From NCBI RefSeq assembly GCF_002802865.1, contig NZ_PGLQ01000001.1, positions 310,001 through 374,000 on the forward strand: a stretch of 64,000 nucleotides of DNA, read 5' to 3'. Positions 3 through 14,954 of the stretch are shown here, piece by piece (within the stretch, counting starts at the first letter, position 1; the number at the start of each line of letters is the position of its first letter). Made by a program: the position numbers and the translations under genes. The DNA is from Bifidobacterium scaligerum (GTDB lineage: Bacteria; Actinomycetota; Actinomycetes; Actinomycetales; Bifidobacteriaceae). Below the pieces are notes generated by a model. The model was not told where the DNA came from and did no database searches. It saw nothing but the letters and a program-made list of their open reading frames with translations.

Positions 3-1301
3 GTCCTGCTTGCCGCCATGGGCGGATGCGCGCTTACGTTCATCGCATTCGTCGTCTCTGCCGTCTACTGGATGCCAGCGCTCATGCGCGGTGCCGGAGC
101 GCTTGCCGCCAAAATCGGCCCCAGTGCCGTCATTGCTCACTCCAACATCCAAAAGAACCCACGCAGGGTTGCCGCCACCGGTGCCGCACTCCTTATCGGC
201 GTCACGCTCGTCTCCACCATCGCCACCGGTGCCGCCAGCGCTAAAACCACCATGGCCGACGCGCTCTCCACCCGCTACAGCGTAGACATGATCGCCACCG
301 GTACCGGCATGACCGAAGAGCAGGCCAGTCAAGTGCGTCATGTTCAGGGCGTCGAACGCGTACTCGACGCGCCGACCGCCCTGCGCCACCTCACCGACGA
401 CCAAGGCCATGATCTCAGCGTCCTGCTCGTCGGCATCCCTGACCTTGACAGTCTTTCGAAAGTCATGCACGCTGACCTGACCGGCATCACTCTGACAGAC
501 CGCGACGTCCTGATGCCCCGACGTGCCCTCAGTGGCGCTGATATCGATTTCGATCGTACGCATACGGCCGATTTCATCGCTGCCGAGAGCACCGCGACGA
601 CCAACACCGACACCACCGCGGCTGCAGGTACGTCCGGCCCAAACCTCACCGTTCTCCAAGCCGATTACCGTCGAGTCTCTTCCACCTACGATGCCGTCGC
701 CTTCGTCACGGTTAATCACTTTACTGACGGTGACCTGACCGAACAGGGGCGCATCCTTCTCATGGCCGCCAATCCCGACGCCAATCACAACGGTGTCGGC
801 GGCATCATCGACGGTGTGCGCGAAGCCTTGAATGCCGTCCCTGACGCCAATGTCACCGGGCCCATTGCTGAGCGCAACATGTGGGACACCACCATCAACG
901 CCATGATGGCCCTGCTCGTCGGCCTCATCGCCGTCGCCGTACTCATCGCGCTTATCGGTGTGGCCAATACGCTCAGCCTGTCCGTTATCGAACGCACTCG
1001 CGAATCCGCCACCCTACGCGCTATTGGCATGACCCGCGGCCAGCTGCGCCGATCCCTCGCCGTGGAAGCACTTCTGCTTGCCGTCGTCTCCGGACTTGCC
1101 GGCGTCATCATCGGCACTCTGTTTGGATGGCTCGGCTCCTACATGGTGTTCAGCCTCTACGGCACCGTCGCCATGCCCTTCGAATGGAAGATCAATGGCA
1201 CCGTCCTCGCCGTGGCTGCGTTAGCCGCCCTTCTGGCCAGTATCCTACCCGCGCGCCGCGCCGCGAACACCCCGCCTGTTGAGGCACTCGCCGAAGCCTG
1301 A
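3..1301 (+). CDS. ABC transporter permease, FtsX/MacB type, C-terminal part (5' end outside window)
   Basis: The reading frame is open from the left edge, so the start lies upstream and the gene is partial. What is visible is the C-terminal half of a FtsX-family permease. First comes one helix and the characteristic cytoplasmic run IGPSAVIAHSNIQKNPRR. A helix at GAALLIGVTLVSTIATGAA follows, then a large extracytoplasmic domain of about 200 residues. The terminal FtsX domain has three helices and the motif VIERTRESATLRAIGMTRGQLRR. The end, PARRAANTPPVEALAEA, is typical of the family. Such permeases work with a separate ATPase, probably encoded just to the left. The substrate (peptide, lipid or drug) cannot be told. 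Confidence 0.9.
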   Translation, partial: VLLAAMGGCALTFIAFVVSAVYWMPALMRGAGALAAKIGPSAVIAHSNIQKNPRRVAATGAALLIGVTLVSTIATGAASAKTTMADALSTRYSVDMIATGTGMTEEQASQVRHVQGVERVLDAPTALRHLTDDQGHDLSVLLVGIPDLDSLSKVMHADLTGITLTDRDVLMPRRALSGADIDFDRTHTADFIAAESTATTNTDTTAAAGTSGPNLTVLQADYRRVSSTYDAVAFVTVNHFTDGDLTEQGRILLMAANPDANHNGVGGIIDGVREALNAVPDANVTGPIAERNMWDTTINAMMALLVGLIAVAVLIALIGVANTLSLSVIERTRESATLRAIGMTRGQLRRSLAVEALLLAVVSGLAGVIIGTLFGWLGSYMVFSLYGTVAMPFEWKINGTVLAVAALAALLASILPARRAANTPPVEALAEA

Positions 1302-1424: not shown

Positions 1425-2177
1425 TCACACCAATCGATTGTCATATGCAAAAACAACGGCTTGCACACGGTCGCGGGCATTGATTTTCGAGAGAATGTGT
1501 GCCACATGCGTCTTCACCGTGGGCAGGGATATGAACAGCTTGTCCGCAATCTCCTGATTACTCAGTCCATGAGCGATCTCCACCAGCACCTCGCGTTCGC
1601 GGTCGGTGAGCAGATCCAGTTCCGGATCGGTATAGACCGGCTGATCGTGAACTTCCATGCGGGGCTTCGATTCTGAGATTCCACCGGAGGTATTGTCGGC
1701 GACGTAGCCGTCCTGCATCATCTTCTCGATAAGTCGTTTCGTGGCGGATGGAGCGATAATCGCATTGCCGTTGAACACTGTACGGATTGAATTGAGCAAC
1801 GTCTCCGGTTCTGTGTCCTTTAAAAGGAATCCGGATGCCCCGGCGTTGATCGCCGCCATGACATATTCGTCCAGGTCGAACGTAGTCAGGATGATCACGC
1901 GCGTGGTATGGGACAGAACTTCTTCGGATGCCGACGCAGTGATGCGTCGTGTGGCTTCGATGCCGTTCATGCCCGGCATACGTACATCCATCAGCACCAC
2001 ATCGGGATGCAGAGATCCGGCCAGTGCCACGGCTTGCGTACCGTCAGACGCCTGCCCGATCACGTTCATATCCGGCTGCGAGCCGATCACCATGGCGAAT
2101 CCGGCTCGAACCAATTCTTGATCATCGGCGATAATTACACGAATGCCATTGCTGTTGACGCTGTTGCTTTCATCCAT
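1425..2177 (-). CDS. Response regulator, NarL/LuxR family
   Basis: The protein has a receiver domain at the N-terminus (IRVIIADDQELVRAGF, phospho-acceptor Asp in VVLMDVRMPGMNG, switch Thr in VIILTTF, Lys in LLKDTEPE). A C-terminal LuxR helix-turn-helix follows (LTDREREVLVEIAHGLSNQEIADKLFISLPTVKTHV). The frame extends upstream to 2264, but the domain begins right after MDESNSVNSNG, so the start at 2177 is preferred. A start at 2204 (MGRGHR) is also possible. The linker between receiver and HTH, about 40 residues, is longer than usual. It lies just downstream of the double sensor kinase on the same strand and is its likely phosphorylation partner. Confidence 0.93.
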   Translation of the reverse strand: MDESNSVNSNGIRVIIADDQELVRAGFAMVIGSQPDMNVIGQASDGTQAVALAGSLHPDVVLMDVRMPGMNGIEATRRITASASEEVLSHTTRVIILTTFDLDEYVMAAINAGASGFLLKDTEPETLLNSIRTVFNGNAIIAPSATKRLIEKMMQDGYVADNTSGGISESKPRMEVHDQPVYTDPELDLLTDREREVLVEIAHGLSNQEIADKLFISLPTVKTHVAHILSKINARDRVQAVVFAYDNRLV

Positions 2178-2280
2178 GTTTTCTACTCTATGTCCTCTTC
2201 CCATAGAGTCCAGTACGTCGATACCCTGAATATTCCCTGAAAAAACAGCAGCCAAGCCTGGCATTGAACCGTGTCGATAG

Positions 2281-4860
2281 TTACGCGCCCCACTTGGCCG
2301 TATGCATTTGACTGTCCAACGATGAGGCGGGGGTCAATTGCATTGACGGTTGCATATCTTTGTGTTGCTCGTCGCTGAAACCGGTCTCGCGCAGCACACT
2401 CAATAGTTCACGCATATGGGTCAGCGCTGCGCGTCCGCGTATGCCGATCGCTGCGAACAAGTCTGCGATCTGTGTGCTATCGGGCGTAGGAGAGGCGTTT
2501 AACATGGCTAATCCGTCGTCAGTTTGCATGATCACCGATTCCAAAGTGGTCATCACTTCGGCCTGCATGGCAGCTCCTATGCGTTCACGCTCCAGATTCG
2601 CCGCAAGTACTTTCTGGCGTTCCTGCTCGGCGCGCAACGCCTCCTCACGTTGTTGCAGCACTAACGCGTTCATGCCTCGTGAACGGGTCCATCGGGCGGC
2701 GGCGATACATGCAAATCCGATTACCATCACCATGCCTGCCGGGACCAGACCGTGGAGGATAACGGTCCATGCGGCTGAGGCGTTGCGTCCTGGGATAATC
2801 AGTTGAGCTACGATATGCCATAAGCCGGTCCCATTCCATCCGGCTGCCATTTTGATGCCGAACGTCCAAGAATCGATTGCCATAGCCATGCACACCCAGC
2901 GCCATGCCCGCTCGCGGCCGTACAGTACGGCGGAATATACGGATACCAAGGCGAACATGTTCACGAACAGAGCATTGGCCGGCATAATGGAAGAGGGAAG
3001 CAGAAGCTGGACAAAAGACACGACCGCCATCGCCAAGGCGCTTGTCTCGGGAAAACGACGGCGGAACGCCAATGGCGCAAGCAGCGCAATGGTCAACGCG
3101 GTGGTGAACGTCCGGTCGGGCAACATCCAATGTATGCCGTCGGCGGCCAGAAGACGCAGATCGTTATAGGTGGTCGAATTGAGCAGCAGCATCAATGCCG
3201 CAGCTGTGAGCATATCCATCAGCAGATAGTGGCGTTCGGTCCATTGAGCGAGCCGGCCAATCCAATCGGATCGATGTGGTGAACCGCCCTGCTCGAAGTG
3301 TTTTGATCGAAACAATGCCGGGAAGCGTGTGCCGCAGAATCGGATGACACGGCGCGAGACAGCCGTCAAACGTGTCCATGCGCGTGTCCCAATAGGAAGG
3401 ATGCTCGGAGCGATGTTATGGGATTCGTCAATGTTCGGGAGTGAGGACGAATCCGAACGATTGTCTGCACGCGTGGGCAGTGCGCCACAGATTTCGGCGG
3501 GGGCGGGGGCATGCGCGGAGAGAAGAGGAATCGACGCTGATACTTGGAATCCTCGTTCATGCTGCGGCCCGGCCGAAACCGTACCACCAAGAGCTGCGAT
3601 GCGCTCGCGCATGCCGATAAGACCGTAACCTGGCCGATGTCCATCCAGCGCGGCTTTGGCTCCGATTCCATCATCCGTGACGGTTACGGAAAGTGCACTA
3701 TCCGACCAATGCTCGATAATCGAGACCTGAGCCCCGGCACCTGCGTATTTGCGAACGTTCGTCAGAGCCTCCTGCACTAGGCGGAACACCGCTTCGCTGG
3801 CCTGAGACGATAATCTGTCGGGTTGTGCACGGCCGGTTATGGTGCGTGAAACGTTGGTTGGGCTGTTCAATAATGATGGGATATTGTCATATGCGTTCGC
3901 ACTGCCATCGGCAGTGACGTCTGTCTGCGTGCCGAACACCGAGAATACGCGCTGCATGTCATGCTGCGCACGCACCGCCTCATGACGAATCGTGCCCATC
4001 GTGCTACGGGCCAAATCAACATTTTGTGCGCCGGCGTATCTGCCACCATCTGCCTGCACAATAATCGTTGACAATGTATGGGCCACCACATCGTGCATGT
4101 CTCGTGCGATGCGGGCCCGTTCGGCGAGCGCAGCGATGCGTGCCTCCTCGACGTCTCTTGCCTCGATGGCGGCATTGCGTTGCCGCATGGCGGTAAGCGT
4201 GGCACGTCGCGCACGTTGCCATAATGCCATCACCGCGATGCTTATCGCGCTGGCCGCGATTGCCGCAGCCATAATCAGCGAGTCCTCAAGTATCTTCATT
4301 CCGCAATTGCCGGCGTTCGGTACGATACCGCTCTTGCCCGGACAGACTGGCAACGTGACGGCGGTGGGGAGCCAAGCGGTCCAAGTTATGTTGAATCCGG
4401 CCGCTGAACCGAACAGTGGTCCGATGTTGAACGTCACTCCCCACACCGCGCCAGCCAGTAGACTCATCATCAACGACGTAACGACAAACCGCACGGTATG
4501 GTGAGCGTCACCGTATACCAATACGGAATAGAGCATGATCAGCGCGAGGAAATCGCTATAGATGATTGCCGGGCCGACAAACAAATGCACTACAGTAAGC
4601 CCAACAAACAGCCATGCTGCGATTCCCGGGCGAACTCTACGCAAGGTCAAGGGGAGGGCATTCGGCAGACTCCACAGCGCAGTCGCTAACTGCGATGAAG
4701 GAAACAGGAGTCCAGGATTGGAGGCAGGATCGGTACTTGCGGCCATCAGCGAGCTGAATGTTATCAACAGCACAGCCAGCAGCGCATCGAACATTACTGT
4801 GCGGGTCGTTTCGCTGCGAATCCATGTTTTCATGCGTGTACAACAATCCGCTATTCCCAT
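2281..4860 (-). CDS. Tandem double sensor histidine kinase, second kinase module degenerate
   Basis: About 859 residues, roughly twice a normal HPK7 (NarX/DesK-like) kinase. First half: membrane helices, then a HisKA_3 dimerisation box (RARIARDMHDVVAHTLSTI, His near residue 256) and a full HATPase (LVQEALTNVRKYA; DDGIG; GYGLIGMRERI). Second half, from about residue 540: a second set of membrane helices, a coiled-coil-like stretch, and a box that aligns without gaps to the first (ERIGAAMQAEVMTTLESVIMQ). There the His is Gln and the Asp is Ala, and no HATPase follows. The start is uncertain. The frame runs open to 4953, overlapping the divergent gene. ATG 4860 has GAGG close upstream and 4833 is an alternative. 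It pairs with the LuxR regulator downstream. Confidence 0.88.
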   Translation of the reverse strand: MGIADCCTRMKTWIRSETTRTVMFDALLAVLLITFSSLMAASTDPASNPGLLFPSSQLATALWSLPNALPLTLRRVRPGIAAWLFVGLTVVHLFVGPAIIYSDFLALIMLYSVLVYGDAHHTVRFVVTSLMMSLLAGAVWGVTFNIGPLFGSAAGFNITWTAWLPTAVTLPVCPGKSGIVPNAGNCGMKILEDSLIMAAAIAASAISIAVMALWQRARRATLTAMRQRNAAIEARDVEEARIAALAERARIARDMHDVVAHTLSTIIVQADGGRYAGAQNVDLARSTMGTIRHEAVRAQHDMQRVFSVFGTQTDVTADGSANAYDNIPSLLNSPTNVSRTITGRAQPDRLSSQASEAVFRLVQEALTNVRKYAGAGAQVSIIEHWSDSALSVTVTDDGIGAKAALDGHRPGYGLIGMRERIAALGGTVSAGPQHERGFQVSASIPLLSAHAPAPAEICGALPTRADNRSDSSSLPNIDESHNIAPSILPIGTRAWTRLTAVSRRVIRFCGTRFPALFRSKHFEQGGSPHRSDWIGRLAQWTERHYLLMDMLTAAALMLLLNSTTYNDLRLLAADGIHWMLPDRTFTTALTIALLAPLAFRRRFPETSALAMAVVSFVQLLLPSSIMPANALFVNMFALVSVYSAVLYGRERAWRWVCMAMAIDSWTFGIKMAAGWNGTGLWHIVAQLIIPGRNASAAWTVILHGLVPAGMVMVIGFACIAAARWTRSRGMNALVLQQREEALRAEQERQKVLAANLERERIGAAMQAEVMTTLESVIMQTDDGLAMLNASPTPDSTQIADLFAAIGIRGRAALTHMRELLSVLRETGFSDEQHKDMQPSMQLTPASSLDSQMHTAKWGA

Positions 4861-4936: not shown

Positions 4937-6400
4937 ATGACACTTCTGAGCAAATATTACGTGCCCGGCCTCGCCATCGAGGACCATTCCATTGATGTGC
5001 CGTTGGATTGGGAAGGCAATGTACCCGGGCAATCATTCGACGGTGAATCCATCAAACTGTTCTACCGTGTAGTCACCACGCCGGAGCACGTACATGACGA
5101 TCTGCCGCTTCTCGTGTTTCTGCAGGGAGGCCCCGGCGGTGCCGGTCCACGTCTGAACAGTCCTACCTCCGACGGTTGGATCGAAGAGGCTACGAAGCAT
5201 TTCCGTGTGATTCTGCCCGATCAACGCGGCACGGGCCGTTCTTCACGCGTGGATACGCATACGATGGCTCGTCTGGCTGCCGCCGGCATGGATGCGCGCG
5301 GTCAAGCCGATTTTCTGAAGAAGTTCCTCGCTGATTCGATCGTGCGTGACTTCGAGCATCTCAGACTCGCCGAATTCGATGGCAGACGATGGGTGACGAT
5401 GGGGCAAAGCTATGGTGGCTTCCTCACGCTGACGTACTTATCCCTCTTCCCATCAGGTGTGATCGCCAGTTTCACCACCGGTGGTATTCCGCATGTTCCG
5501 GCCGATGCCGCTGAGGTGTACGAGCATACGTTCCCGCGTATGGCGCGCAAGACGGCACAGTTTTATGAGCGCTACCCGCAGGATGAGGAACGAGTGGCGG
5601 CGATTGCCGACCAGCTGCCTACCGCGGCTGAAGTGTCGCAGTTCGTCGGCACCCTCACCGATTCGGTCCTGAACTCGGTGGCGGGCAGCGATATCGAGCA
5701 TCGACTGGGCATTATCGCCGGTATGAAAGCGCACGGTTTCCCGCTACTGCCGAATGGGGACCCTCTTACCATCGAACGATTCCAATGCCTCGGTTCCGAT
5801 TTCGGCATGAAACCGAGTTTTGAGCGTGTCCATTGGATTCTCGATGACGCCTTCCTGAATGGCGACGGTTCCGCTTCCGTTGATTCGCCGTTCTCCGATG
5901 AGTTCCTGACCAAGGTGATGAACGCCACTTCGTCGCGCCCGCTGTACTGGCCATTGCAGGAGTTCATCTATGCCGACGGCGATATGAGCGCGCCGATCCG
6001 GTGGGCGGCACAACGTGTTCGCGACACCCACCCCGAATTCGGAGCTGATGTACGTCCGATGAACTTCACCGGCGAGGCCATGTTCCCGTGGATGTTCGAG
6101 CAGGAGGCGGCGCTGCGCCCGTTCAAGCCGGCGATGGATGTGCTCATGGAGGAGACAAGCTTCGGCCGTATCTACGATGTCGAACAGTTGGCCATGAACG
6201 AGGTGCCGTTGCAGGCCGCCGTCTACTTCGACGACATGTATGTGGATTCCGGCATGCAACTCGATACCTTGAGCCGTGTGGGTAACAGTCACTACTGGAC
6301 CACGAATGAATTCGAGCATGACGGACTGCACGGCTCGCTGGTGTTCAAGCATCTTTGGGACGAGGCTCTCAACCGCGGAGACCTTGAGGAACTGTTCTGA
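4937..6400 (+). CDS. pip: Proline iminopeptidase, alpha/beta hydrolase (peptidase family S33)
   Basis: 487 residues. It releases N-terminal proline from peptides in the cytosol. The oxyanion-hole motif is seen as LQGGPGGAGPRL near residue 60, followed by DQRGTGRSS and the nucleophile elbow GQSYGGF near residue 157. A C-terminal HDGLHGS carries the probable catalytic His. No signal peptide is seen. There is no clear ribosome binding site, and the ATG directly abuts the divergent kinase promoter region, so a leaderless transcript is possible. It is 11 bases from proC, with which it likely forms an operon linking proline release and proline metabolism. Confidence 0.9.
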   Translation: MTLLSKYYVPGLAIEDHSIDVPLDWEGNVPGQSFDGESIKLFYRVVTTPEHVHDDLPLLVFLQGGPGGAGPRLNSPTSDGWIEEATKHFRVILPDQRGTGRSSRVDTHTMARLAAAGMDARGQADFLKKFLADSIVRDFEHLRLAEFDGRRWVTMGQSYGGFLTLTYLSLFPSGVIASFTTGGIPHVPADAAEVYEHTFPRMARKTAQFYERYPQDEERVAAIADQLPTAAEVSQFVGTLTDSVLNSVAGSDIEHRLGIIAGMKAHGFPLLPNGDPLTIERFQCLGSDFGMKPSFERVHWILDDAFLNGDGSASVDSPFSDEFLTKVMNATSSRPLYWPLQEFIYADGDMSAPIRWAAQRVRDTHPEFGADVRPMNFTGEAMFPWMFEQEAALRPFKPAMDVLMEETSFGRIYDVEQLAMNEVPLQAAVYFDDMYVDSGMQLDTLSRVGNSHYWTTNEFEHDGLHGSLVFKHLWDEALNRGDLEELF

Positions 6401-8882: not shown

Positions 8883-9971
8883 ATGTCTTTAACAATCGGA
8901 ATCGTCGGACTGCCCAATGTCGGCAAGTCCACCATGTTTAATGCATTGACCCGCAACAATGTGCTGGCCGAGAACTATCCGTTCGCCACCATCGAACCGA
9001 ACACGGGCATCGTGCCGCTGCCGGATGATCGACTGCCCGTGCTGGCCAAGCTGGTCAACACCGAGAAGATTGTGCCCGCCACCGTGACCTTCGTAGACAT
9101 TGCCGGCATCGTCAAGGGCGCATCTGAGGGCGAAGGCTTGGGCAACAAGTTCCTCGCCAACATTCGTGAGGCGGATGCCATCTGCGAGGTCGTGCGCGCA
9201 TTCGAGGATGACGATATCGTGCACGTCAACGGCAAGGTTGACCCGGCCGACGACATCGACACCATCAACACCGAGCTGATTCTCGCAGATCTGCAGACCA
9301 TCGAAAACGCGCTGCCGAAGCTGGAGAAGGATCTGCGCGGCAAGAAGATCGAGCCGGCATATATGGAGGCCGTCAAGCAGGCCAAGACGATTCTTGAAGC
9401 CGGCGAGACCTTGGACAAGGCTGCGCGCGAAGGCCGCTTCGACAAGGATTCCGTCTATGACTTGCATCTAATGACCGCCAAGCCGTTCATTTACGTGTTC
9501 AATGTGGATGACAACGAGCTGGCCAACGACGAACTCAAGAAGAAGCTCGCCGCATCCGTGGCTCCGGCTCCCGCTGTGTTCCTGAACGCCCAGTTCGAGG
9601 CTGATTTGACCGAGCTCGATGAGGCCGATGCCCGCGAAATGCTGGCGGATGCTGGTCTTTCCGAGTCCGGTCTTGACCAGCTGGCTCGCGTGGGCTTTGA
9701 CATTCTGGGTCTCCAGACCTTCCTGACCGCAGGTGTCAAGGAAGTGCGCGCATGGCAGATCCACAAGGGTTGGACCGCCCCTCAGGCCGCCGGCGTGATT
9801 CACACTGATTTCGAGAAGGGCTTCATCAAAGCCGACATCGTCTCCTACGATGACTTCGTCGCCGCAGAGGGTTCTATGGCCAAGATCAAGGAGGAGGGCA
9901 AGCTCCGCCAGGAAGGCCGCGACTACGTCATGCAAGACGGCGATATCGTCGAGTTCAAGTTCAACGTCTAA
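8883..9971 (+). CDS. ychF: Redox-regulated ATPase/GTPase YchF (OLA1 family)
   Basis: 362 residues. It is a ribosome-associated P-loop NTPase of the Obg-related class that prefers ATP. It shows G1 GLPNVGKST (residues 8-16), G3 DIAGIVKGA, the coiled-coil insert ([19 protein letters not shown]) and the C-terminal TGS domain ending [16 protein letters not shown]. The frame is open to 8844, but the family begins at [12 protein letters not shown], so 8883 is the start. Its last bases are repeated twice downstream, at 11.7 and 14.1 kb. Confidence 0.97.
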
Positions 9972-9979
9972 GAAGTGAT
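9954..9979 (+). repeat. ychF 3'-end repeat, copy 1 (native)
   Basis: 26 bases covering the last five codons, the stop and the next 8 bases of ychF. They recur identically at 14097-14122 and in degenerate form at 11674-11723. The three copies delimit an accessory segment. Confidence 0.9.
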
Positions 9980-9995
9980 CGTTGGGTAGCATCAA

Positions 9996-10036
9996 GGGTC
10001 TTGGAATCGCTAGAATTCCAAGACCCTCGTTTATTT
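9996..10036 (+). terminator. Rho-independent terminator of ychF
   Basis: The arms GGGTCTTGGAATT and AATTCCAAGACCC overlap slightly at the loop and are followed by TCGTTTATTT. A related but not identical hairpin follows the third repeat copy at 14139. Confidence 0.88.
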
Positions 10037-10170
10037 CGGCCATACGGAACTCTTCAGGGGGCACTTCCATCTCGAATCGCCGTACCGGACTCCATTGGCG
10101 GCTCCTCCGGGTTTGTCCCAGACCTCGGAGTCATGCCATAGACAGGTCTTCAGTCAGCGGCTGCCAACCG

Positions 10171-10674
10171 CTACGGACGGGTCATCAGATAGTTGGTGAA
10201 TGAGACAGTCCCGATTGTCGGATGCCGAGTCTCGACCGTGCGGAATCCATGACGGGCAAAGAACGGATGCGCGGTGATGCTGGCGTGGACGGCGAGACGT
10301 ACGATACCATGGTCGGCCGTGAATTGCTCCACTCGCGCAAGCAGCAACGTGGCGACGCCCAGACGCCCGTACGCCGGGGCGACGAACAACATGTCGATGT
10401 ATCCGGAGTCGTCCACGTCGATGAAACCGATCGGAGTGCCGATTGCGGAATCGGGCGAATCGCCGTCACAGGCGTCGTCGGCCAGTGCGGCGACCCATGT
10501 ATGCGCGGCCATCCGACGGATATTCCATCCGGCGGCCGAACCTGTTCGGCTGGCCCACATGCGCGTCTGTTCCGTATCGTAATCCCGTGACGCCGTTTCG
10601 AGGATAGCGCGACGGAAGACTTGCATCGTTGCCGTCGCGTCGGATGGCCGATACTTCCGGATGATGACTCGCAT
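10171..10674 (-). CDS. GNAT-family N-acetyltransferase
   Basis: 167 residues, a typical single GNAT domain. The N-terminal strand is VIIRKYRPSDATATMQVFR. The acetyl-CoA loop region is YIDMLFVAPAYGRLGVATLLLARVE (motif A in the form R-x-x-G-V-A). The C-terminal HASITAHPFFARHGFRTVETR is the usual motif B. It resembles the YafP/ElaA-type general acetyltransferases, and its substrate is unknown. It lies within the accessory segment and runs against its neighbours. Just beyond its start is a fragment of an unrelated flavin-binding gene, so the gene was probably inserted there. Confidence 0.88.
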   Translation of the reverse strand: MRVIIRKYRPSDATATMQVFRRAILETASRDYDTEQTRMWASRTGSAAGWNIRRMAAHTWVAALADDACDGDSPDSAIGTPIGFIDVDDSGYIDMLFVAPAYGRLGVATLLLARVEQFTADHGIVRLAVHASITAHPFFARHGFRTVETRHPTIGTVSFTNYLMTRP

Positions 10675-10700
10675 GATGTCTCAGTGTAGAGGGCATCGGC

Positions 10701-10805
10701 ACCATCGTGGAACGGTTCGGCGACCAGTTGGTTCTCTTCGAGATCGAGTTCCATGAAGCCAGCGTGACGATCGATCTCGTACATTCGGGTGCCTTGAAGC
10801 TCTAG
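10701..10805 (+). pseudogene. Fragment: 3' end of a pyridoxamine 5'-phosphate oxidase-like gene
   Basis: The frame reads TIVERFGDQLVLFEIEFHE then ASVTIDLVHSGALKL and a TAG stop. It matches the last 32 or so residues of the intact gene at 14366-14785. Over 10708-10803 versus 14688-14783 I count 8 differences in 96 bases. No start or N-terminal part remains, so this is a remnant of a duplication. Confidence 0.9.
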
Positions 10806-14785: not shown

Positions 14786-14892
14786 TTCATTCCGAAAAAC
14801 CGTAGGTTCGCGGTTCCAATCTTCGTATGGGTAGAGTTGAACGATATCTGTTTTCGGCTGTGTTATCGTGCATAGATAGAGCTGGCGTTGCT

Positions 14893-14934
14893 CCCGGACG
14901 ATGGACAAGTACCCGGTTTGACAAGACTTGCCAT
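14893..14934 (+). promoter_or_regulatory. Guanidine-III (PRF) riboswitch
   Basis: The RNA contains the conserved blocks CCGGACGA, then UACCCGG, then GACAAGAC of the guanidine-III class. The P1 helix can form between CCGG (14894-14897) and CCGG further on. The pseudoknot pairs AUGG(A)CAAGU (14901-14910) with ACUUGCCAU (14926-14934), with one bulged A and otherwise complete complementarity. The element ends a few bases before the ribosome binding site GAGGAG of the downstream SMR gene, consistent with translational control. The gene encodes a guanidinium-exporter-type SMR protein, which fits the ligand. Confidence 0.93.
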
Positions 14935-14954
14935 ACATGAGGAGTACGACGGTT

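Follow-up and report, generated by a model that had tools for sequence, protein, structure and literature searches.

We describe a tandem-module sensor kinase of Bifidobacterium scaligerum that shows reciprocal degeneration of its two DHps. The catalytic helix 1 is kept by module 1 and the helix-2 arginines by module 2, an observation that is new here. This residue pattern points to a hetero-bundle rather than to a DHp homodimer. The reading that we favor, with about even confidence, is that of a single-chain pseudo-heterodimeric HisKA_3 kinase (DesK/NarX-like), in which module 2 would partner module 1 and supply half of one docking site. The gene lies in a window of 64,000 nucleotides, the whole stretch of DNA that was analyzed (contig NZ_PGLQ01000001.1, positions 310,001 to 374,000).

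Results

The kinase consists of two unequal modules

A single uninterrupted frame on the minus strand, running from an ATG at 4860 to a stop at 2281, encodes 859 aa, and 129 of the 149 aligned rows have Met in its start column. From the N-terminus, a DUF7134 membrane domain is followed by a HisKA_3 DHp and HATPase_c. A variable linker, about 80 residues long, then leads to another DUF7134, another DHp-like hairpin and a short tail (see table). Pfam recovered DUF7134 in each half, at 4.3e-20 with the full-length protein and at 3.5e-09 and 9.5e-14 when the first and the second half were scanned alone. When the halves were scanned apart, HisKA_3 (2.2e-14) and HATPase_c (1.3e-09) were found in the first half only. 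In the full-length scan a second HisKA_3 stretch was counted at the loose cut-off of E <=1, with its position not displayed. Module 1 thus has the build of a HisKA_3 kinase, an H-[DE] DHp followed by HATPase_c, and module 2 alone does not. A sequence-only reading of this DNA had described two complete sensor halves. Membrane part and DHp are indeed duplicated, but the ATPase is present in the first half only. Aligned residue by residue, the stretch ERARIARDMHDVVAHTLS of module 1 lies against ERERIGAAMQAEVMTTLE of module 2, with His256 replaced by Gln766 and Asp257 by Ala767. The same reading had been right about this exchange of the acceptor and its neighbor. By eye, the tail motif L.PA..LD.QL that follows the dead DHp resembles the DHp-ATPase linker of outside kinases.

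Table. Features of the tandem kinase and its neighborhood, in positions of the window.
Feature	Positions	Strand	Basis or conservation
Tandem-module sensor kinase, 859 aa	2281..4860	-	single frame in 149/155 loci
DUF7134 membrane sensor of module 1, residues 12-142	4435..4827	-	Pfam
Catalytic DHp of module 1 with partly degenerate helix 2, residues 236-310	3931..4155	-	alignment columns
Phospho-acceptor His256 codon	4093..4095	-	His in 149/149
Sole ATPase domain, HATPase_c, residues 356-446	3523..3795	-	Pfam
Inter-module variable linker, residues 452-535	3256..3507	-	alignment
DUF7134 membrane sensor of module 2, residues 538-678	2827..3249	-	Pfam and HMM of module-1 membrane part
Pseudo-DHp of module 2 with dead helix 1 and canonical helix 2, residues 741-828	2377..2640	-	alignment columns
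Gln766 codon, phospho-acceptor position	2563..2565	-	Q 118, R 28, H 3 among 149
Arg817 codon, DesK Arg235 equivalent by alignment and counting	2410..2412	-	Arg in 149/149
Conserved C-terminal tail motif L.PA..LD.QL, residues 842-852	2305..2337	-	149 aligned rows
Response regulator, Response_reg and GerE/LuxR HTH, directly downstream of kinase, start codon uncertain	1425..2264	-	Pfam
FtsX-type ABC permease, convergent with regulator	18..1301	+	on downstream side in 133/149 loci
Alpha/beta hydrolase, divergent neighbor (upstream)	4937..6400	+	in 130/149 loci

The tandem architecture is conserved in Bifidobacteriaceae

Of 155 Bifidobacteriaceae loci, namely the window and 154 fetched loci (109 from the same genus, 45 from other genera of the family), 149 have both halves in a single frame and in this order. 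The best matches of both halves lay in one open frame in 150 loci, and 149 rows were aligned after L144, which ends at a contig edge with 441 aa, had been removed by hand. The other five are two broken frames (L064 and L180), one contig edge (L102), one locus without module 1 (L142) and one with masked stretches (L143). Named relatives include Bifidobacterium olomucense (91%) as well as B. felsineum and B. colobi (69% each). The observation is therefore real, general and conserved, and the domain order suggested for a check in other bifidobacteria is borne out by these loci.

The first reading had named two findings that would overturn it, and both failed to appear. A fusion created by a sequencing error is ruled out by the single frame in 149 of 155 loci, which come from different species-level genomes. 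A separate start for the second half is ruled out as a general feature, since a candidate in the linker, counted as an in-frame ATG or GTG (not TTG) with a Shine-Dalgarno-like stretch, was present in just 5 of 149 rows.

The tandem kinase is not universal in Bifidobacteriaceae. A query with the second half matched 110 of 112 same-genus genomes, where a few matches may be module 1 or another kinase, and found no match in the remaining two (G012 and G096) nor in 10 of the 47 other genomes of the family that were asked again. In one same-genus genome (G045, locus L142, 6174-7421) a lone module 2 with the Gln kept forms a 416-aa frame directly before the regulator; no module 1 was found in this genome. 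Searches of an open-license library of papers returned no description of the tandem kinase among the matches listed. One study lists among the markers of Bifidobacteriales a 1-aa insert in a “histidine kinase”, which may be this protein or another (PMC4921777).

Module 2 is catalytically dead and under purifying selection

In module 1, His256, Asp257, His261, Asn368, Gly413 and Gly416 are each conserved in 149/149 rows. The DxxxQ/H phosphatase motif, formed by Asp257 and His261, is hence complete in every row. The corresponding columns of module 2 have lost this chemistry. Its acceptor column holds Gln in 118, Arg in 28 and His in 3 rows, the adjoining column varies among 12 residues (44 Ala, 24 Ser, 18 each of Gly and Gln, 2 Asp and others), and the equivalent of His261 is His in 5 and Gln in 5 of 149. 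The three His rows (L176, L177 and L179) belong to one genus and have Glu after the His; no ATPase match was found in their second halves. An HMM of the module-1 ATPase matched 0/149 second halves, even at E <=10, in agreement with the earlier statement that the second half has no ATPase domain. The same result rules out a second ATPase hidden in the tail, and it separates the protein from double kinases of the TodS type with two catalytic modules.

The fold of module 2 is conserved nonetheless. An HMM of the module-1 membrane part matched 148/149 second halves at E <=10 and 146/149 at 1e-5. Phe802, Arg810, Leu813, Arg817 and Leu823 are invariant (149/149), Arg824 is kept in 147/149 and Pro844 of the tail in 148/149. 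For four close pairs, dN/dS was 0.03-0.06 in module-2 helix 1, 0.00-0.32 in helix 2 and 0.07-0.24 in TM2. Module 2 is under purifying selection. With its acceptor His lost and its fold, including a predicted hairpin, conserved, it qualifies as a pseudo-histidine kinase. That module 2 might be a decaying duplicate without function, as the missing catalytic residues and ATPase would allow, is barely credible in view of the low dN/dS, the five invariant residues and the age of the tandem, in which each module forms one clade older than the sampled rows.

The two DHps have lost residues reciprocally

For comparison we used 44 outside kinases with one DHp match each. Nineteen of them (of 20 fetched) had been chosen for their similarity to the whole query, and hence mostly to module 1; the other 25 (of 30) came from a Pfam search. 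All three helix-2 arginines were present in 40/44 outside kinases, in 0/149 module-1 rows, a few of which (such as L045, L177 and L179) are mis-registered in this count, and in 146/149 module-2 rows. Taken singly, the three columns were Arg in 41, 44 and 43 of the 44 outside kinases, in 24, 34 and 6 of 149 module-1 rows and in 149, 149 and 146 of 149 module-2 rows. The helix-2 profile was built from motifs picked with an arginine-favoring pattern, and all 44 outside kinases were re-scored with this profile.

Adding 11 kinases fetched for likeness to module 2 gave 55 outside kinases, in which 33 DHp columns are conserved. Both modules retain 12 of these columns, module 1 alone retains another 10 and module 2 alone another 4; the remaining 7 are intermediate, and no column was doubly lost. 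The module-1-only columns comprise nine in helix 1 and one acidic residue in helix 2, and the module-2-only columns all lie in helix 2. By chance, such a complete lack would be expected with a probability of about 0.11 (hypergeometric, by hand), and it is weak taken alone. Helix 2 of DHp1 keeps several hydrophobic core columns.

Predicted docking residues are divided between the modules

By sequence, the best solved relative of the DHp-ATPase part of module 1 is DesK (1.5e-11). Structures of DesK:DesR show a regulator that sits on helix 1 of one protomer and makes minor contacts with helix 2' of the partner protomer (PMC5231405). There, DesK Arg235 forms a salt bridge with Asp103 of the regulator, and Asp203 and Arg206 also touch it; in the phosphatase state His188 is hydrogen-bonded to His188' of the other protomer, and Gln193 is given as the residue of the phosphatase motif (PMC5231405).

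Counted by hand from His188, the middle helix-2 arginine of module 2, Arg817, aligns with DesK Arg235 and is present in 149/149 rows. Asp271 and Arg274 of module 1 correspond by position to DesK Asp203 and Arg206 and are kept in 149/149 and 148/149; their module-2 equivalents are Asp in 53/149 and Arg in 1/149. The reverse face, formed by module 2 helix 1 and module 1 helix 2, is degenerate on both sides, and the regulator keeps a Lys-Asp pair in 144/144. Since the equivalents of the DesK docking residues are split between the modules, a DHp1-DHp2 bundle would have exactly one complete docking face. Furthermore, the restriction of column 766 to Gln, Arg and His is what a residue facing His256 might show.

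Co-variation and structure prediction

Inter-domain co-variation was calculated as mutual information with average-product correction on 149 rows with an effective number of 88. DHp1-DHp2 pairs made up 25 of the top 200 inter-domain pairs, a 2.9-fold enrichment and the highest inter-domain class. Co-variation of helix 1 with helix 2' peaked at the register expected for antiparallel packing, and 0/27 other bands were as high; that of helix 1 with helix 1' peaked within three residues of register. No register peak was found for helix 2 with helix 1' or helix 2 with helix 2' in these 149 rows, and the intra-module controls gave a register peak inside DHp2 and none inside DHp1. Effect sizes were small. 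The signal persisted when second halves were shuffled within clades; it therefore lies on deep branches and may be phylogenetic.

An AlphaFold2 model of the kinase, made with four sequences, reached a mean pLDDT of 44 and a pTM of 0.27 and is uninformative about packing. Moderate confidence was confined to the DHp hairpins and the ATPase; the hairpin of module 2 was predicted at 708-789 and 795-825, with DHp pLDDT blocks of 49-74.

Origin of the tandem kinase

Both trees that were calculated placed module 1, module 2 and the outside kinases each on one side of a branch, and both modules together were separated from 19 outside kinases with a support of 99/95. The tandem is thus older than the sampled rows, since all copies of a given module fall into a single clade. 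This agrees with a single duplication that preceded the split of the sampled genera, with long-branch attraction as a possible caveat. The internal duplication proposed in the sequence-only reading is thus supported, as is its dead second module. Its suggestion that this module is a second sensory input or an inhibitor fares less well, since the reciprocal helix loss fits a dimerization partner better.

Among the matches listed in searches of 197 and 394 class-wide genomes, none was recognized as a tandem protein, and none was found outside the family among 64 frames that were taken from these matches. These frames were the 44 kinases with one DHp match each and 20 loci with one DHp region each in the parts seen. 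Nine of the 20 loci had been picked for long open frames, of which two proved to be 412 aa, and several long frames reach the edge of the fetched stretch with up to about 240 residues unseen. The architecture is thus absent outside the family as far as it was sampled.

Genomic neighborhood

A regulator with Response_reg and GerE domains adjoins the kinase in the window, which identifies it as a partner of the NarL/LuxR type. Among the 149 loci, it follows the kinase on the same strand in 143 and lies on the opposite strand in one (L044 of G053, 3387-4199, the sole such locus); five loci had no match in the fetched stretch. The matched part of the regulator begins less than 300 bases from the kinase stop in 125 of 144 cases and about 2.4 kb away in three. 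In the five loci without a match, the regulator lies farther off or on another contig of the same genomes, and one has an internal stop. At L114 (G101), an insert on the minus strand at about 9392-10762, with a frame that looks TnpB-like by eye, lies between kinase and regulator, and the regulator is found beyond it, just past the fetched stretch. An envelope function is no more than hinted at by the neighboring FtsX-type permease. Scans for promoters and terminators gave matches at chance level.

Two further features of the window were recorded. A second histidine kinase of the same genome (56907-57614, minus strand; locus L002) is a single-module protein in a 447 aa frame and is 31% identical over the DHp-ATPase part. 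A Guanidine-III riboswitch at 14874-14935 on the plus strand scored 41.3 bits, against an Rfam gathering score of 36.

Discussion

A model for a fused, asymmetric kinase

The reciprocal loss of helix-1 and helix-2 residues fits module 2 best as the dimerization partner of module 1. We infer that DHp1 and DHp2 pair, within or between chains. In our model, a DUF7134-HisKA_3 kinase would have been duplicated in the Bifidobacteriaceae lineage, so that a single polypeptide came to carry a pair of membrane sensors and a pair of DHp hairpins, and the second copy would have lost its ATPase and acceptor His and become the fixed partner of the first. DHp1 and DHp2 would then pack as one four-helix bundle with Gln766 or Arg766 opposite His256, replacing the partner histidine, and the sole ATPase would phosphorylate His256. 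The adjacent response regulator would have one composite docking site, to which DHp1 contributes helix 1 (Asp271 and Arg274) and DHp2 contributes helix 2 (Arg817), and dephosphorylation would depend on Asp257/His261. The two diverged membrane halves would form one asymmetric sensor, and module 2 possibly contributes extra sensory input or inhibition on top of its role as partner. In its strictest form, a natural single-chain kinase that works without homodimerization, with a permanent asymmetric bundle, one phospho-His, one ATPase and one composite regulator dock, the model is tentative, and we place it somewhat below an even chance.

A hetero-bundle of one chain with one ATPase needs cis autophosphorylation. 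DesK probably autophosphorylates in trans, and if these kinases act in trans, the ATPase of module 1 would face a dead helix, which speaks against the one-chain form. Cis or trans autophosphorylation is set by the handedness of the DHp loop, according to one report (PMC6798134), and NarX/NarQ may break this rule, according to another (PMC8199190). Three further points count against the pairing, namely the minor helix-2 contact in DesK, the genome with module 2 and no module 1, and the three rows with an acceptor His and no ATPase.

The most serious competitor, although in our view unlikely, is an ordinary two-chain homodimer in which DHp1 pairs with DHp1' and a DHp2-DHp2' module serves as second sensory input or inhibitor. 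It would account for the complete conservation of the six DHp and ATPase residues of module 1 and for the fact that both duplicated membrane sensors are recognizable, and trans autophosphorylation would follow with no further assumption. However, DHp1-DHp1' would lack the full set of helix-2 arginines, with the equivalent of DesK Arg235 being Arg in just 34/149 rows, and the catalytically idle DHp2 would keep all three in 146/149. That DHp1-DHp2 is the most co-varying inter-domain class also argues against it, with the caveat of phylogeny. More improbable is a domain-swapped dimer of two chains with two hetero-bundles, each made of DHp1 of one chain and DHp2 of the other. The same residue evidence that suggests the single-chain pseudo-heterodimer applies to it, and subunit swapping is described for engineered single-chain chemoreceptors (PMC4692393). 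The data fit the one-chain form equally well, however, and the variable linker is long enough for either.

We give a still smaller chance to an exchange of partners, in which DHp1-DHp1' would form for trans autophosphorylation and DHp1-DHp2 for docking, phosphotransfer and dephosphorylation, so that module 2 would switch the state of the kinase. This would reconcile a composite dock with trans autophosphorylation and is consistent with the hydrophobic core columns kept in DHp1 helix 2, but the two pairing states are conjectural.

Comparison with known systems

The tandem kinase shares the HD motif, a membrane sensor and a NarL/LuxR-type regulator with DesK of Bacillus subtilis. DesK is a dimer of identical single-module chains, whereas here two unequal modules are fused and His and ATPase reside in one of them only. 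DivL of Caulobacter is a pseudo-histidine kinase, a kinase-like protein that regulates another kinase; it is a separate protein, whereas the dead module described here is part of the same chain and has no ATPase domain. TodS carries two kinase modules in one soluble chain, both active in a relay. Unlike TodS, the tandem kinase has one dead module and no receiver domain in the chain. EL346 shows that a kinase need not dimerize with its own copy (PMC10359499), but it is soluble and of the HWE/HisKA2 type, and its DHp face is covered by a LOV domain and not by a second DHp. Single-chain chemoreceptors, both engineered (Tsr~Tsr) and natural (soluble ones in Rhodospirillum centenum), likewise join both subunits of a dimeric receptor into one polypeptide (PMC4692393). 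They have no kinase chemistry, and both halves of the engineered receptor are Tsr.

If the model is correct, the tandem kinase would be an evolutionary analogue of the pseudo-symmetric fused dimers found elsewhere in biology. Most work on sensor kinases concerns symmetric dimers, in which it is difficult to mutate one half without the other. Here the halves would be encoded apart in one chain, and each helix, each docking face and the question of cis or trans autophosphorylation could be tested separately for either side. In infants, bifidobacteria are dominant among the gut bacteria, and the kinase and its regulator are a widely conserved signaling system of these organisms.
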